Assembly: GCA_040388535.1 (NCBI GenBank) | Contig: JAZKBR010000002.1 | Span: forward strand, 314,630 to 378,629 | Length of the DNA stretch: 64,000 nt | Source: Gemmatimonadota bacterium | GTDB lineage: Bacteria > Gemmatimonadota > Gemmatimonadetes > Gemmatimonadales > GWC2-71-9 | Direction: 5' to 3' | In this document: in pieces, positions 10,738-56,043 of the stretch | How the letters are laid out: each line of letters opens with the position of its first letter | Numbering within the stretch: position 1 is the first letter of the stretch | Made by a program: the position numbers and the translations under genes | Notes under the pieces: model-generated | Seen by the model: only the letters and a program-made list of their open reading frames with translations | The model's database searches: none | What the model was told of the DNA's origin: nothing

Positions 10738-12918
10738 CTACTTCATTCGCTCGATGTCGAGGCGAAGCTCGTACCAGCCGTCGATCTGCAGGTGCACCAC
10801 CCGAATGGTGTGGGTCCCGGTGGCCGTGAACTCGGCCGCCTTCGCGTGTGATTCACCCGGCGCCCAGTCGTCGAGCAGCAGATTTCCATCGAGGTAGACT
10901 TTCACAGCGTCGTCCGAGATCGTGCGCATCGTGTACTTGCCCGGTGCGAGTGTCACGCTGGTCGTCGCCTCGGTCAGGACGTTCGCCTGTGGGATGATCT
11001 TTCGCGGCGGCCCATACCAGGTCAGGTCGAGGCGGGTCGTGTCCATCGTCGTTATTTCGGCGTCACGCAGCGCCTGGGCAATCGCAGCATCGTCGGTTCG
11101 TGGCGTCCTGACGGAATCCCAGGCCAAAAAGCGCAGATGCCAGGAGGCGGTGGGCAGGTAGCGCGACCAGCCGAAGCGTACCGCGGTGCCTGCAGCGATC
11201 TTCTCGCCGAAGGGCGATGTCGTGGCCAGGCCGCGATACTCGAGTTGCACGCGATAGTCGTTCTCGTGCCCGGCAACCGGGGTTACAACCAGCGTGTCGC
11301 CCACCTTGCCGCTGCTGGCCGAGAGTGACGCGACCCCGTCACGAGAAACCACTTGCCAACGCCCGGCCGGACCGAGGACGCGGAGCTTCTGCGGCGTAGC
11401 ATCTGATCGGCCGACGGGCCAGAGTTTCGGGCTCTTCCATTCGTAGGGACCCCACTCGTCGACGATGATGGTGTTGCGGCCGCGACGTGCGCCGGCGGGG
11501 AGTATCGCGTTGATACCGCCAGGGAGTTTCGCCACCTGGTATTCCGTCGGAATCGGCGAGGCATCGAAGTCGTCGTCGTCTTGCCAGAACGGTACCGTGC
11601 CGCTGCTGTCACCGCTGATGCGGGCCAGCGAATCGACATCACGAAAGAGGTTGCCGCTTCCCCGCAGCGCCTGCGTGTTGTCGGCGCGCAGTGCGAGGCG
11701 GACATTGTGGAACTCGTTGCCCTCGATAGCGTAACCCCGCGAGCGGGTGTCGCGGTGCTTCGGGTAACCCCAGTCGGACGGTTCGATCTTGTTCCACCAG
11801 AGATGGATCGCCGTGGTATCCTGGGTGAAGCTATTCCCGCCGACGACATTGTCCTGCCCGTGCTCGATGGCAATCGCCTCCACATTCCGTGCGAAGGCGT
11901 TCCCGATCACCACCGAGTTGTAGGAATAACCGCCCCAGAGGCCGTGCCAATTCTCTTCCACGCGGTTGTTGACGAAGGCATTGCGCGAGAAGGTCGCTTC
12001 CATCCCGTTCGTGGGAGCGTGGGAGAAGTCATTGCGATAGAAGAGATTGTCGTTCGCCCCGCCCTGCCCGCTGTCCATCGTGCTCTGACCGGCCCAGAGG
12101 AAGAGCCCGTCGCCGCCGTGGGTCACCGAATTGAACGCCACCACATTGTTCGATGTCTGCTCAAACATCAGCAGCCCGGCTGAATCCTGGCCGCGATTGA
12201 AGAAACCGTGGGAGTAGCCACGAACGTCGTAGTCGATGTGATTGTGCATCAGCGTGTCGTAGCTGGCGCGGTACATCCCGACACCGAGGCCGGAATTGTA
12301 GGAGAAATCGTTGTTCCAGACTCGCGTGCCCGTAGTACGCACCAGCATCAGTCCGTTCATCCCGCGCCGCACCGTGTTCCCCTTCACCTCGCTTGCGCTC
12401 ACATCGACGAGATAGATCGCCGCGCCATAGCGCAGCCATTCATCCTTCTCGTTGTGGTGATAGGAGAGCCAGTCGACCAGCGACTCCTTCTCGATGCCGG
12501 AGTAGAGCCGCGGCCGCCAGTTGTCGGAGAGGTCGTTGTCGAGGAGGCGAAGCCGCGTCACACCGCGAGCAATGATGCCGACCTTGTAGCCGCGCACCCG
12601 GGCACCCGTCACGGTGACATTGCGACCGCCATCGACACGAACGGCCGTGCCGGCAAATCCCTCGGGATTCTCGCGGTCGCTGCTCCCGATCAGCTCGACG
12701 CCACGCAGGTCCACAACAATGTTGCTGCCGCGCACGGTGATCGCAGCCGAATCGCCGGCCGGCGCGAGGTATCGCCCGGGGCGGATCCGCACCGAGTGGG
12801 TGATGACCATTCCCGACATGAAGGGCGTAGCTGCTGTCTGTGCGGGGAGGACCGACGGAAGTGCGAGGATGAGCAGCGCGGAGGCGAACCTCCGCGCGCT
12901 CAGAGAGAGCTGCATCAT
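10738..12918 (-). CDS. secreted right-handed beta-helix protein with C-terminal PA14-like domain
   Basis: A 726-residue exported protein starting at one of two adjacent ATGs (12918 or 12915; MMQLSLSARRFASALL), with a signal peptide ending SVLPAQ. Residues from about 50 to 440 are parallel beta-helix (NosD/CASH type): repeated Asn-rich rungs such as VRVDGGRNVTVTGARVRGY, LRLLDNDLSDN, TRVWNNDFSYNSG and NNVVAFNSVTHGGDGLFLW. The C-terminus (APGKYTMRTISDDAVKVYLD then DDWAPGESHAKAAEF) resembles a PA14 carbohydrate-binding fold. Such proteins often bind or cleave polysaccharides, but no lyase catalytic pattern is evident. Its start overlaps the stop of the upstream DsrE-like gene (ATGA). The frame is open upstream, but that part is a shadow of the neighbour. 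Confidence 0.85.
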   Translation of the reverse strand: MMQLSLSARRFASALLILALPSVLPAQTAATPFMSGMVITHSVRIRPGRYLAPAGDSAAITVRGSNIVVDLRGVELIGSSDRENPEGFAGTAVRVDGGRNVTVTGARVRGYKVGIIARGVTRLRLLDNDLSDNWRPRLYSGIEKESLVDWLSYHHNEKDEWLRYGAAIYLVDVSASEVKGNTVRRGMNGLMLVRTTGTRVWNNDFSYNSGLGVGMYRASYDTLMHNHIDYDVRGYSHGFFNRGQDSAGLLMFEQTSNNVVAFNSVTHGGDGLFLWAGQSTMDSGQGGANDNLFYRNDFSHAPTNGMEATFSRNAFVNNRVEENWHGLWGGYSYNSVVIGNAFARNVEAIAIEHGQDNVVGGNSFTQDTTAIHLWWNKIEPSDWGYPKHRDTRSRGYAIEGNEFHNVRLALRADNTQALRGSGNLFRDVDSLARISGDSSGTVPFWQDDDDFDASPIPTEYQVAKLPGGINAILPAGARRGRNTIIVDEWGPYEWKSPKLWPVGRSDATPQKLRVLGPAGRWQVVSRDGVASLSASSGKVGDTLVVTPVAGHENDYRVQLEYRGLATTSPFGEKIAAGTAVRFGWSRYLPTASWHLRFLAWDSVRTPRTDDAAIAQALRDAEITTMDTTRLDLTWYGPPRKIIPQANVLTEATTSVTLAPGKYTMRTISDDAVKVYLDGNLLLDDWAPGESHAKAAEFTATGTHTIRVVHLQIDGWYELRLDIERMK

Positions 12919-51472: not shown

Positions 51473-52699
51473 ATGATCGCCGACCGGCTCCTCATCGGAA
51501 TCTCCCAATTGGTGACCACCGCCGGCGTCGGTGCTGCGCGCGGTGCCGCGATGAGTCAGCTCGAGATCATCCCCGACGCGGCCATCGCCATTGTGGGCGA
51601 TCAGATCGCCTGGGTCGGCCCGCGGACCGAGTGGCATGGCAACGCGGCGACCGAACAGCACCTCGGAAACTGCGCGGTGCTTCCCGGGCTGGTCGACCCG
51701 CACACCCACGCCGTCTGGGCTGGCGATCGACTCGCCGATTTCGAGGCGCGCGTCAGTGGCGTGCCCTACGAGGCGATTCTCGCTGGTGGCGGCGGCATCC
51801 GCTCCACCGTGCGACAGACTGCGGCCGCAACGGGCGAGACCCTGTTGGCCCTCGCCCAACCGCGCATCGATGCCTTGATGCGGAGTGGCGCCACGACTGT
51901 CGAGGTCAAGAGCGGTTATGGCTTCACGCACGAGGCGGAAATCCTTTCGCTCGGAGTGATCACTGCACTCGCGACGAGCAGCCAGGTCGGTATCGAAGCG
52001 ACTCTGCTGATTCACGTTCCTCCCGCGAATGCTGCCGAACGCGGCGATTATCTCGCGATGGTAACCCGTGAGTTGATTCCCGAAGCAGCGCGACGCGGTC
52101 TCGCCCGGGCCGTTGACATCTTCATCGAACGCGAGGCCTTCACGCTGGCGGAGGCGACGGCCGTCTTCACGGCGGCGCGGACGCACGCGCTCAGCATCAA
52201 GGCCCACGTCGATCAATTCCATGCGATCGGCGGACTGGAACTGGCGGTGGAACACGGCGCGCTCTCGGTCGATCATCTCGAAGCGTCTGGCCCGGCACAA
52301 ATCGAGGCCTTGGCACAAGGCAGAAGCGTAGGGGTCATCCTCCCCGGCGTGACCCTGCATCTCGGCCTCCCCGCCGCCCCGGCCCGCGCGCTCATCGAAG
52401 CCGGCGCAGCGGTTGCCGTGGGGACCGACCTCAACCCCGGATCGTCGCCGCTCTTCTCTACCCAGCAGGCGATGGCGCTCGCGGTCCGCCTCAACCGGCT
52501 CACCCCGGCCGAGGCGGTCACGGCCGGTACCGCCAATGCCGCGGCTGCGCTGGGTCGCGGCGATATCGGCCGCATCCGTTCAGGCACCCGCGCGGACCTC
52601 CTGGTTCTCGACAGCGCCGACTGGCGCGATCTTCCCTACACGCTCGGCACGTCGCCGATCGGACAGCTTTTCATCGGTGGACACGAGGTGTCGTTGTGA
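51473..52699 (+). CDS. hutI: imidazolonepropionase
   Basis: A 408-residue metal-dependent amidohydrolase that opens the imidazolone ring to give N-formimino-L-glutamate, third step of histidine breakdown. ATG 51473 gives MIADRLLIGISQLVT; the open frame upstream is a shadow over the S41 gene. Metal and substrate motifs include LPGLVDPHTHAVWAGDR, TTVEVKSGYGF, KAHVDQFHAIGG and the late Asp in VAVGTDLNPGSS. Length is normal. It overlaps hutH by GTGA. A palindrome separates it from the S41 peptidase gene, but no other promoter is obvious. Confidence 0.97.
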   Translation: MIADRLLIGISQLVTTAGVGAARGAAMSQLEIIPDAAIAIVGDQIAWVGPRTEWHGNAATEQHLGNCAVLPGLVDPHTHAVWAGDRLADFEARVSGVPYEAILAGGGGIRSTVRQTAAATGETLLALAQPRIDALMRSGATTVEVKSGYGFTHEAEILSLGVITALATSSQVGIEATLLIHVPPANAAERGDYLAMVTRELIPEAARRGLARAVDIFIEREAFTLAEATAVFTAARTHALSIKAHVDQFHAIGGLELAVEHGALSVDHLEASGPAQIEALAQGRSVGVILPGVTLHLGLPAAPARALIEAGAAVAVGTDLNPGSSPLFSTQQAMALAVRLNRLTPAEAVTAGTANAAAALGRGDIGRIRSGTRADLLVLDSADWRDLPYTLGTSPIGQLFIGGHEVSL

Positions 52700-54225
52700 G
52701 TGCTCCCACGCTGGTTGGTCGTCGCCTCTCCCTCAGGGATGTCGTGCGCGTGGCGCGGGACGGCCAGCCCGTGGCGCTCTGCCCCGATGCGGCGGTGCGC
52801 ATCGCGCAGTCGCGCGCCTACATCGAGCAGATCGTGGCCGAAGGACGGATGGTCTATGGCGTGACCACCGGCTTCGGCAAGCTCGCCAACGTTCGCATTG
52901 CGGCCGCCGACGTGCAGCAGTTGCAGCGAAACCTGATCGTTTCCCATGCGATGGGTGTGGGTGAGCCGTTCTCGACCGAAGTGGTCCGCGCGATGCTGCT
53001 GTTGCGCGCGCAATCACTGGCGCAGGGGAACAGCGGCATCCGTGTTGATGTCATCATGCTGCTGCTCGCGATGCTCGACCGTGGTGTGCATCCGGTGGTG
53101 CCGTGCCAGGGGTCGGTCGGTGCCAGTGGCGACCTCGCGCCACTCGCCCATATGGCGCTGACCCTGATTGGAGAAGGCTTCGCCGAATTCGGCGGTGAGG
53201 TGCTGCCAGCCACCGAAGCGCTCTCCCGCGCCGGACTCTCGCCGGTGGTGCTCGAAGCCAAGGAAGGACTCGCGCTCATCAACGGCACCCAGGCGATGAC
53301 AGCGATCGGCGCACTGGTAATCCACGACGCAATGGAGCTTGCCACTGTTGCCGACATCGCCGGCGCGATGTCACTCGAGGCGCTGAAGGGAACCCGCACA
53401 CCATTCGACGCTCGCGTTACCGCCGTGCGCCCGCATCCCGGCGCCGCGGCCACGGCGGCGAACATCCTCCTCCTCTCGGCCGACTCCCCGATTCACGCGT
53501 CGCACGCCGACTGCGACAAGATCCAGGATGCCTACTCGCTCCGCTGCATCCCTCAGGTGCATGGCGCCTCGCGCGATGCGCTCGACCACGCGGCCACCGT
53601 CCTCGACCGCGAGATCAACGCGGTCACTGACAATCCGCTGGTTTTCGCTTCCGACGACCTGGTGATCTCCGCCGGCAACTTCCACGGCCAGCCAGTCGCC
53701 CTGGTCATGGACTATGCCAAGATCGCGATCGCCGAACTCGCCAACATCGCCGAACGCCGCGTGGAGCACATGCTCGACCCGGCAGTATCAGGACTCCCGG
53801 CATTCCTCGCGCATCAGGGTGGTCTGCATTCGGGATTGATGATCTCGCAGTACACCGCCGCATCACTCGTCAGCGAGAACAAGGTGCTCGCGCACCCCGC
53901 CAGCGTCGACTCGATTCCCACCAGTGCCAACCAGGAAGATCACGTCTCGATGGGCACCACCAGCGCGCGGCAGTGTGCCATGATCCTCGAAAACTCCCGC
54001 TGGGTCCTCGCCGTTGAAGTGCTCAATGCGGCCCAGGCACTCGACTTCCACAAGCCGCTCGAACCAGGGCCCGGGGTCGGCGCGGCAGTGACCCTGGTTC
54101 GCAGTGTGGTGCCACCACTCGATGCCGACCGGATCATGACCGGCGACCTGGCCGCGGTCCGGTCCCTCATCGTCAAAGGCACCCTGCGGAGGGCAGTCGA
54201 AGCGGCGATCGGGAAGCTCCGATAG
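52696..54225 (+). CDS. hutH: histidine ammonia-lyase
   Basis: A 509-residue enzyme that eliminates ammonia from histidine to form urocanate, the first hut step. The MIO prosthetic group forms from Ala-Ser-Gly in GSVGASGDLAPLAHMAL, at about residues 142-144, the same place as in characterised HALs. VYGVTTGFGKLANVRI near residue 54 supplies the conserved Tyr. Start GTG 52696 lies in the hutI stop (GTGA), so it is coupled. It is the last gene of the hut group and is followed by a 423-base non-coding stretch with tandem repeats and strong secondary structure. Confidence 0.97.
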   Translation: MSAPTLVGRRLSLRDVVRVARDGQPVALCPDAAVRIAQSRAYIEQIVAEGRMVYGVTTGFGKLANVRIAAADVQQLQRNLIVSHAMGVGEPFSTEVVRAMLLLRAQSLAQGNSGIRVDVIMLLLAMLDRGVHPVVPCQGSVGASGDLAPLAHMALTLIGEGFAEFGGEVLPATEALSRAGLSPVVLEAKEGLALINGTQAMTAIGALVIHDAMELATVADIAGAMSLEALKGTRTPFDARVTAVRPHPGAAATAANILLLSADSPIHASHADCDKIQDAYSLRCIPQVHGASRDALDHAATVLDREINAVTDNPLVFASDDLVISAGNFHGQPVALVMDYAKIAIAELANIAERRVEHMLDPAVSGLPAFLAHQGGLHSGLMISQYTAASLVSENKVLAHPASVDSIPTSANQEDHVSMGTTSARQCAMILENSRWVLAVEVLNAAQALDFHKPLEPGPGVGAAVTLVRSVVPPLDADRIMTGDLAAVRSLIVKGTLRRAVEAAIGKLR

Positions 54226-54238
54226 GCCCGAGGTTCCC

Positions 54239-54274
54239 GACGAGCGAGAGACGAGCGAGAGACGAGCGAGAGAC
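54239..54274. repeat. 11-base tandem repeat after hutH
   Basis: Three consecutive copies of GACGAGCGAGA (54239-54249, 54250-54260, 54261-54271) plus a partial GAC, starting 13 bases after the hutH stop. The unit is not a multiple of three, and the region is not coding in a convincing frame. It borders the structured module that follows. Confidence 0.85.
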
Positions 54275-54281
54275 GCCAGCG

Positions 54282-54388
54282 TTGCTCGTGGGCTGCCTCT
54301 CCGCGTCTGTTACAGCCGCCCGCGATCGCACTAGCGATACCAGCAATCGTGAGCGACGGCTGTAAAGGCCGCTGCGAGGCACCCACGA
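54282..54388. ncRNA. structured module 1 in the hutH-hydrolase gap
   Basis: Nested complementarity: TCGTGGG (54286-54292) with CCCACGA (54382-54388), GCCTC (54295-54299) with GAGGC (54376-54380), and TTACAGCCG (54310-54318) with CGGCTGTAA (54357-54365), enclosing a small hairpin ATCGC-ACTA-GCGAT (54325-54338). A symmetric 10x10 internal loop lies between the second and third stems. Whether it acts as RNA or as a DNA repeat is not known; the strand is undetermined. Confidence 0.5.
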
Positions 54389-54432
54389 CTCAACGCGAGC
54401 GAATCTCACGACGCGGAATAGCAGCACGTGGA

Positions 54433-54610
54433 CTCGGTGCAGGAGCCGTGGGAGGAGAATCAGTAGGGAGCGCGTCCATAGCCGGCGCTCTTTGCGCCGG
54501 CGAGCGATTCGCAGGAGCGACCGCCGAGCGGGCGGCAGCGCCCGCCGCCGGTCGCTACCGAATCGCGGACGCGCAGAATCTGATCCGACGACCACGGCGC
54601 CTGCGCCGAG
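54433..54610. ncRNA. structured module 2: branched element upstream of the serine hydrolase gene
   Basis: A 178-base segment that folds almost completely on itself. The outer 19-base arms 54433-54451 and 54592-54610 pair with one G-T wobble and one mismatch. Inside are ATCAG/CTGAT (54459-54463 with 54580-54584) and GCGCGTCC/GGACGCGC (54470-54477 with 54567-54574). The latter opens into two arms: hairpin GCCGGCGC-TCTTT-GCGCCGGC (54481-54501), and a long arm GCGATTCG/CGAATCGC (54504-54511 with 54559-54566), AGCGACCG/CGGTCGCT (54516-54523 with 54549-54556) and GCGGGCG-GCAG-CGCCCGC (54528-54545). It ends 38 bases before the hydrolase ATG. It does not match RNase P, tmRNA, SRP or 6S motifs I know. 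It may be a cis-regulatory RNA, an sRNA or a REP-type element; strand is undetermined. Confidence 0.6.
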
Positions 54611-54648: not shown

Positions 54649-56043
54649 ATGACGCTTCGTGGATCGCTACTCTCGATGTTTTTGCTTGCCGCGCCGCTCA
54701 CCGCGCAGACCGTCGACACGACGGCAGTCAATCGCCTCTTTGCGCGATACGCGACCGACTCCACGCCGGGCTGCGCGATCGGCATCGCGCGGGGCGGTGA
54801 CCTGCTCTTTGCGCACGGCTACGGCCTCGCCGACCTCGAACGGAATGTGCCGCTCACAGCAGGCAGTGTGATCGAAGCCGGCTCGGTATCGAAGCAGTTC
54901 ACCGCAGCTGCGGTACTCCTGCTCGCTTCGCGCGGACTCCTTTCGCTCGATGACAACATCCTGCACTACTTCCCCGAGCTTCCCGATTTCGGCACGCCGA
55001 TCACCATTCGCAATCTGATGCAGCATACCAGCGGGTTGCGCGATTGGGGCGCGATGGCCGAACTCGAGGGGTGGCCGCGCGGCACGCGGACCGCGACCCA
55101 GGGCGACGTGCTGACCATTCTCTCCCGGCAGCGGCGGCTCAACCACGCGCCCGGGGCGGCATTTTCCTATACCAACAGCGGCTACAACCTGCTGGTGATG
55201 CTGGTCGAGCGAGTCACCGGGCAATCATTCCCGGCCTTTACCTCGCGTGAATTCTTCGTGCCACTGGGAATGACGCACACCCAGTGGCGCGATGACTACG
55301 CCCGGATCGTGCACGACCGGGCCGAGGCGTATTCTCGCGATGGCAGTAACTGGAAGCTCGATATGCCGTTCGAAAATGCCTACGGCAACGGTGGGCTGCT
55401 CACCACGGTTGGCGACTTGCTGCGCTGGACGCAGGCCATCGCCGACCATCGCATCGGCAACCCGGATGTGAGCGAGGCGATGCAGACACCCGGTACGCTG
55501 ACCAACGGCAAGCCGATAGCGTACGGTGGTGGACTCTTCATGACATCGTTCCGGGGTGTACGCGAGATCAGCCACAACGGCGCGACCGCCGGCTATCGCT
55601 CCTTTCTCGCGCAGTATCCGGAGAGCCGGTACCGGGTCGCGGTGCTCTGCAATGCGGGGAGTGCCAACCCGGTGGCGCTTGGGCACGACGCCATCGGAAC
55701 CCTCATCACCTTCGCACCGCCTCCGGCGCCAGCGGCCACGACACCAGCACCCGCACCTTCCCACGCCGTGACGCCGTCGCACCGGGCTTTGCAGGCGATT
55801 ACTGGAACCTGGATCAGCGATGAAGCCGCGGCACGCTGGCTCATCACCCTCCGCAGCGACACGTTGCGCGTCACCCGCCGACCGGGGGATGAGTTCGCGC
55901 TTCGGCCCACGGGTACCGATCAGTTCGCCGGCGCCGGTACCACGATTCGCGTCACCCGGAACAAGCGTGGCGCCGTCTCCCAGTTGTTCGTCACCATTTC
56001 AAGCGCCGTTGATGTGGCCTTCCGCCGGGCCGGAATGAAGTAG
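54649..56043 (+). CDS. secreted serine hydrolase, class C beta-lactamase-like (penicillin-binding family)
   Basis: A 464-residue exported enzyme. ATG 54649 has GAGGAG eight bases upstream and begins the signal MTLRGSLLSMFLLAAPLTAQ; the same frame is open to 54349 across the structured element, but that part lacks protein-like character. Active-site motifs are SVSK (about 80-83), YTN (near 174) and HNG (near 309, replacing KTG), the pattern of class C beta-lactamase/esterase EstB-like proteins. After a Pro/Ala-rich linker (APAATTPAPAPSHAVTPS) comes a small C-terminal beta domain (TWISDEAAARWLITL). Substrates could be peptidoglycan peptides or esters; beta-lactam resistance is not implied. Confidence 0.9.
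   Translation: MTLRGSLLSMFLLAAPLTAQTVDTTAVNRLFARYATDSTPGCAIGIARGGDLLFAHGYGLADLERNVPLTAGSVIEAGSVSKQFTAAAVLLLASRGLLSLDDNILHYFPELPDFGTPITIRNLMQHTSGLRDWGAMAELEGWPRGTRTATQGDVLTILSRQRRLNHAPGAAFSYTNSGYNLLVMLVERVTGQSFPAFTSREFFVPLGMTHTQWRDDYARIVHDRAEAYSRDGSNWKLDMPFENAYGNGGLLTTVGDLLRWTQAIADHRIGNPDVSEAMQTPGTLTNGKPIAYGGGLFMTSFRGVREISHNGATAGYRSFLAQYPESRYRVAVLCNAGSANPVALGHDAIGTLITFAPPPAPAATTPAPAPSHAVTPSHRALQAITGTWISDEAAARWLITLRSDTLRVTRRPGDEFALRPTGTDQFAGAGTTIRVTRNKRGAVSQLFVTISSAVDVAFRRAGMK

Follow-up and report, generated by a model that had tools for sequence, protein, structure and literature searches.

How the element that occupies the 178 nucleotides immediately before a secreted hydrolase gene should be understood is the question raised by this locus, which lies in a 64,000-nucleotide stretch of a Gemmatimonadota genome (hereafter, the window). 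The first-pass annotation, made from the sequence alone, proposed that it could be a novel cis-regulatory RNA or sRNA, or else a complex REP-like mobile palindrome. The genome of the window (G000) comprises 3.72 Mb in 11 contigs, and the element, termed element A, was compared there and in related genomes. The features concerned are listed in Table 1.

The minimum free energy (MFE) structure predicted for the plus-strand RNA is the one that had been drawn by hand-pairing, with 66 pairs counted in the 178 bases where about 63 had been given. Its outer stem has 11 + 7 pairs with one mismatch and is followed by 5-pair and 8-pair stems. These open into a three-way junction that carries an 8-pair hairpin with a TCTTT loop and an arm of 8, 8 and 2 + 7 pairs with a GCAG loop. 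We name these parts, from the outside inwards, the outer arm, internal loop J1, helix P2, internal loop J2, helix P3 and the three-way junction with its hairpin P4 and arm P5/P6. The comparison with dinucleotide shuffles on both strands that the first-pass annotation had called for favours the fold strongly, since the plus strand reaches -130.6 kcal/mol against -82.5 +/- 4.5 for 200 shuffles (z -10.7), and the minus strand reaches -126.1 (z -9.0). Folding with DNA parameters gives z -10.0. Strong folding of the minus strand and with DNA parameters is as expected, because element A is a near-palindrome. The Rfam covariance models give no match at the gathering score, and those seen at E up to 10 are at chance level only; even among these, HEARO (the IscB omega-RNA family) is absent.

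Table 1. Features in and around element A, with positions in the window
Feature	Position	Strand	Description
Aromatic amino acid lyase / histidine ammonia-lyase gene	52696-54225	+	Neighbour, not part of the element; Pfam PF00221, 667 bits
Tandem repeat	54239-54275	+	3.4 copies of GACGAGCGAGA, at the left edge of element B
Element B	about 54266-54408	+	Companion of A in the same orientation; large imperfect palindrome, dispersed repeat
B-A spacer	54409-54432	+	No two copies have the same sequence; length 32-44 nt if measured from the B core end
Element A	54433-54610	+	Full copy, branched imperfect palindrome; covariance model match at 54445-54598, 177.9 bits
Head, 5' side of J2	54464-54469	+	Unpaired TAGGGA; most conserved sequence, together with the adjoining GCGCGTCC
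Helix strand after the head	54470-54477	+	GCGCGTCC
Hairpin P4	54481-54501	+	GCCGGCGC-TCTTT-GCGCCGGC; both partners differ between species in 5 of 8 pairs
Arm P5 with extension P6	54504-54566	+	P5 (GCGATTCG/CGAATCGC) conserved; P6 variable and covarying
J2, 3' side	54575-54579	+	AGAAT here, GGAAT or GGATC in other copies; from alignments and conservation
Secreted beta-lactamase-family serine hydrolase gene	54649-56043	+	Neighbour, not part of the element; Pfam PF00144, 212 bits

Element A is a genus-restricted dispersed intergenic repeat. There are 12 full copies in G000, as well as partial ones, with 76-100% identity in a DNA search. Contigs C2 and C3 start within a copy and contigs C1 and C3 end within one; the assembly breaks are thus probably due to the repeat. 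Covariance model R1 finds six further copies in the congener G009 and one in G001, and none in the rest of the 102 genomes of the family or of the 395 sampled across the phylum; the well-assembled congener G006 likewise yields none with the covariance model. When a degenerate pattern of the element was run against 85,000 species genomes, the sole source was the Gemmatimonadetes MAG palsa_1233, which is taken to be G009 because the element A copies match. No match is present among phages, plasmids or IMG/VR, and a phage, plasmid or viral origin is rejected on the basis of these collections. At locus L089 of G009, a second element A, which is a remnant with its centre deleted, directly follows a copy, and tandem A is thus also seen in a congener.

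Every copy lies between genes, and the neighbouring genes are unrelated in function where examined. By our tally, the approximately 15 placements for which both neighbours are called include about seven co-directional, seven convergent and one divergent; co-directional and convergent intergenic placement has likewise been reported for REPs (PMC3733652). The surroundings of the copies in G009 and G000 share a single gene, at a different distance and in opposite orientation, where we estimate 0.9 to be expected by chance. The two species thus have no more positions of element A in common than the roughly one that chance would give.

The junction between an ABC permease gene and parA bears on how one copy came to its place. 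In G000 this junction holds both B and A, and the permease stop codon is separated from the ParA Walker motif by 670 bases. In the same gene order, the stretch measures 252 bases in G009, 159 in G008, 377 in G002, 486 in G001 and 328 in G006, and a covariance model search finds element A missing at the junction of all five. By parsimony, these five congeners without the element make the G000 lineage the best place for the gain. Sequence comparison thus indicates that element A was probably gained there, with insertion preferred over repeated loss by parsimony only. Two parS-like sites (GTTTCACGTGAAAC) flank the B+A insert near parA (L053, approximately 11050-11560); they could represent either an ordinary duplication of parS or a long duplication of the target. 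Overall, the suggestion of a complex REP-like mobile palindrome proves largely right, given that element A is dispersed and intergenic, is lacking from congeners at one orthologous site, and is frequently located beside another palindrome.

Conservation among the copies is distributed unevenly. The alignment used, which was fitted to the structure, has 19 rows drawn from three species. Pairing holds in 98% of its pair cells, and both partners have changed in 25 of the 45 pairs, a level reached by none of 500 shuffles. Identity between G000 and G009 is 0.80-0.87 in internal loop J2 and helices P3, P4 and P5, 0.66 in internal loop J1, and 0.09-0.49 in the P4 loop, J3, P1, P2 and side arm P6. J2 by itself stands at 0.80, and leaving P2 aside the low group spans 0.09-0.47. 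The conserved core consists of the unpaired nTAGGGA head, the helix GCGCGYCC and the three-way junction, and it is the outer arm, the loops and the side arm that vary. The purine-rich internal loops, GAGGA/GACGA included, are kept in sequence, and a 22-mer around TAGGGA is exact at all 13 places found in G000 by a search allowing 3 mismatches.

There is also a bias between the strands. RNA energy is lower on the plus strand in 16 of 16 copies. When scaffolds are folded without G-U pairs, which makes them strand-symmetric, the single mismatches include 22 G-T and 5 A-C. The copies are related, so these counts are not independent; as distinct alignment sites the ratio is 9:1 on A1 and only 6:3, a weak excess, on A4. 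This bias suggests that one strand, the plus strand, is the working form. Template switching at palindromes also yields multi-base compensatory changes (PMC8794818), and for this reason covariation alone is no proof of RNA function. The conserved unpaired bases and the strand bias are better evidence for a folded single strand than is covariation.

Most copies of element A have element B just upstream, and eight such pairs in the same orientation were counted. Element B occupies 27 distinct places in G000, where it occurs as several centre subtypes with conserved arms, and it was found in none of 39 other family genomes searched. Its wobble bias is opposite to that of A (G-T 2 versus A-C 14) and points to the opposite strand. 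A Mantel test of paired B and A distances gives r 0.26 (p 0.07) with an outlier included, and without it the distances are uncorrelated (r about 0, p 0.54). On this ground paired copies have separate histories, and movement of B and A as one unit was rejected. To judge from these distances, the association seems to have arisen repeatedly, or else B centres have been exchanged. The idea that the spacer forms a third hairpin was rejected, as all eight spacers fold only a little better than shuffled sequence and none is convincing singly (combined z -2.8). B-A-B arrays are located at L055 (9500-10200, on C7) and L050 (3150-3850, on C3), and the C7 array also holds copies of A without a centre, as expected from slippage at hairpins. 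Two spacers, at L053 (C2:546 kb) and L054 (C2:815 kb), have AGCACTTCCTCG in common in opposite orientation and differ in the remainder, possibly reflecting spacer inversion. Clusters of B copies with a further repeat (GTCGCCCCGGGC...GACGCGACGCCTGGGGCCTCCGAAGTCG) occur at L048, L049 and L062.

A search for the mobiliser gave the following results. Neither of the two Y1 (IS200-like) transposase genes in G000 has A at its flanks; other, classical REP-like palindromes stand there instead. They lie at L064 (8500-9250) and L065 (8180-8900), each with palindromes of its own (GAGCTCGTGACTAAAGTCACGGCTC; GGTGCCGCGC..GCGCGGCACC), and apparently represent RAYT-REP pairs in Gemmatimonadota. No Y1 transposase gene was found in G009, despite its six copies of A. 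A RAYT is thus rejected as the current mobiliser, given that the Y1 genes bear other palindromes and are missing in G009. An RVT_1 search of G000, G009 and G001 gave no reverse transcriptase match, and retro-mobility is rejected for these A-bearing genomes. No target-site duplication accompanies the copies; exact flanking repeats are no longer than 2 bp, and the element ends are not sharply defined. The GTAG-type REP of X. campestris is GTAGGAGCGCGCTCGCGCGCGA (PMC2817692), and by our reading it is resembled by the head-plus-helix GTAGGGAGCGCG of element A. This form of the head is present in most G000 copies, with ATAG in others and CTAG mainly in G009 and G001, and further variants are seen as well.

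These results bear differently on the possible explanations. A riboswitch-like leader of the hydrolase gene has the position in its favour, as the element ends 38 bases before the ATG at 54649, on the same strand. However, the other 11 full copies adjoin unrelated genes and are mostly outside a leader position, among the 10 G000 copies for which both neighbours are called only three have a same-strand gene directly downstream, and the hydrolase homologues in congeners have no element A upstream. The proposed cis-regulatory role for the hydrolase is therefore not supported. The contexts of the copies and the element-free homologues lead us to reject a riboswitch or leader of this gene, which is left with a very small probability, and the link between A and the hydrolase is incidental. 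A broader RNA hypothesis is that A is a multi-copy functional RNA, either an sRNA or a 3' or 5' UTR module, which is selected for its RNA structure and whose dispersal is secondary. The compensatory changes in major helices across three species, the conserved purine-rich internal loops, and the plus-strand advantage in every copy with G-U exceeding A-C would all be accounted for, and A may indeed have an RNA function, as its pairing covaries strongly and is strand-biased. On the other hand, neither gene context nor position is conserved, Rfam holds no match, no promoter- or terminator-like site was seen nearby (a weak test), the element was not found in G006, and template switching could also create and maintain compensatory stems (PMC8794818). 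We regard this hypothesis as rather unlikely.

Two DNA-level explanations can be set beside these. If A were an ordinary MITE, its outer arms would be terminal inverted repeats for a DDE transposase acting in trans. It is dispersed, palindromic and intergenic, as such an element should be, and its arms are long and, in the G009 copy L091, perfect over 28 bp. But the arms, which are similar within G000, show no relation among several G009 copies or from one species to another, and the centre is conserved, which is the reverse of a MITE. Moreover, no target-site duplication was found, and no larger parent transposon with A ends came to light, given that the left-half motif occurs only within A copies (in G000, with a partial transposase survey). 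Thus, a MITE appears distinctly improbable. A still lower probability, that of a very unlikely event, is given to a functionless DNA palindrome whose copies multiplied by recombination and whose symmetry is maintained by template switching at quasipalindromes. Such switching does give rise to multi-base compensatory changes (PMC8794818), and tandem B-A arrays with centre-deleted remnants reveal slippage at these palindromes, but the conserved unpaired TAGGGA/GGAAT, the strand asymmetry and the presence at a new, unlinked site would be left unexplained.

On balance, we lean towards the reading that element A belongs to a new family of non-autonomous mobile repeats that are intergenic and restricted to one genus, and that its working form is a single folded strand, the plus strand. 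Perhaps A spreads through a trans-acting enzyme that recognises the conserved head and core once the top strand has folded as single-stranded DNA, such as on the lagging strand, in the way proposed for TnpA-REP/RAYT enzymes and REPs. Because the head-plus-helix is like that of GTAG-type REPs, our preferred candidate would be a HUH enzyme, either extinct or distant, that works on the top strand in its folded form. The outer arm would stay complementary while its sequence changes. Where A is transcribed with a neighbouring gene, which may be the case for the copy before the hydrolase, it would form a passive stable barrier in the mRNA. Against the mobile-repeat reading, no enzyme is linked to A, the GTAG head is not strictly kept, and the strand bias fits a functional RNA equally. 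A more unusual and unlikely possibility is that A is a mobile structured RNA or single-stranded DNA module of new architecture, moved by machinery not known for REPs or MITEs, with the core possibly inserting into pre-existing palindromes. The architecture meant here is a branched one, in which a conserved head and three-way-junction core are combined with an exchangeable, always self-complementary outer arm.

Element A extends what is known of structured mobile repeats in Gemmatimonadota by a family specific to one genus, and a limited search of the literature found no description of such a repeat family in this phylum. Its variable paired arms, conserved unpaired head and strand-biased wobbles suggest that a folded single strand is what is recognised, in contrast to transposition of the classical inverted-repeat kind. 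Element A would serve as a test case for the spread of large palindromes without a linked transposase.

Among known systems, the REP, BIME and REPIN repeats with their RAYT (TnpA-REP) enzymes are similar in several respects. They are palindromes scattered through intergenic regions, for the most part close to convergent or co-directional genes, and they form mosaics with other palindromes, are strand-polar and carry an unpaired head before the palindrome (GTAG, compared with mostly nTAGGGA in A). However, REPs are hairpins of 20-40 bp present in hundreds of copies, whereas A is branched, about 178 bp long and present in 12 full copies. An unpaired GTAG (or GTGG or CGTC) stands at one end of a REP, and the head of A is not strictly GTAG. 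The Y1 gene of a REP system is flanked by the same repeat, whereas no Y1 gene is flanked by A and G009 has none.

The ERIC and RU elements are intergenic imperfect palindromic repeats of approximately 100-200 bp with a conserved predicted fold (PMC2267715; RU sizes from PMC2759123), and A likewise falls in the 100-200 bp range, is palindromic and dispersed between genes, and has a fold common to its copies. ERIC-like repeats are further characterised by being transcribed and by affecting mRNA stability or the expression of adjacent genes. Element A differs in its branched three-way junction with conserved internal loops and in arms that vary yet stay paired, and the likeness seen is one of form. 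MITEs of DDE transposons are also small, non-coding and dispersed, with inverted-repeat arms, but A combines variable arms with a conserved centre and has no target-site duplication. The TIR elements of TIRYT tyrosine transposases (PMC3733652) are comparable as long, partly self-complementary palindromes of moderate copy number that form dimers and clusters, but in G000 no tyrosine transposase gene is flanked by A. By the tests made, element A is neither a REP nor a MITE, and in how it works it is probably REP/ERIC-like.
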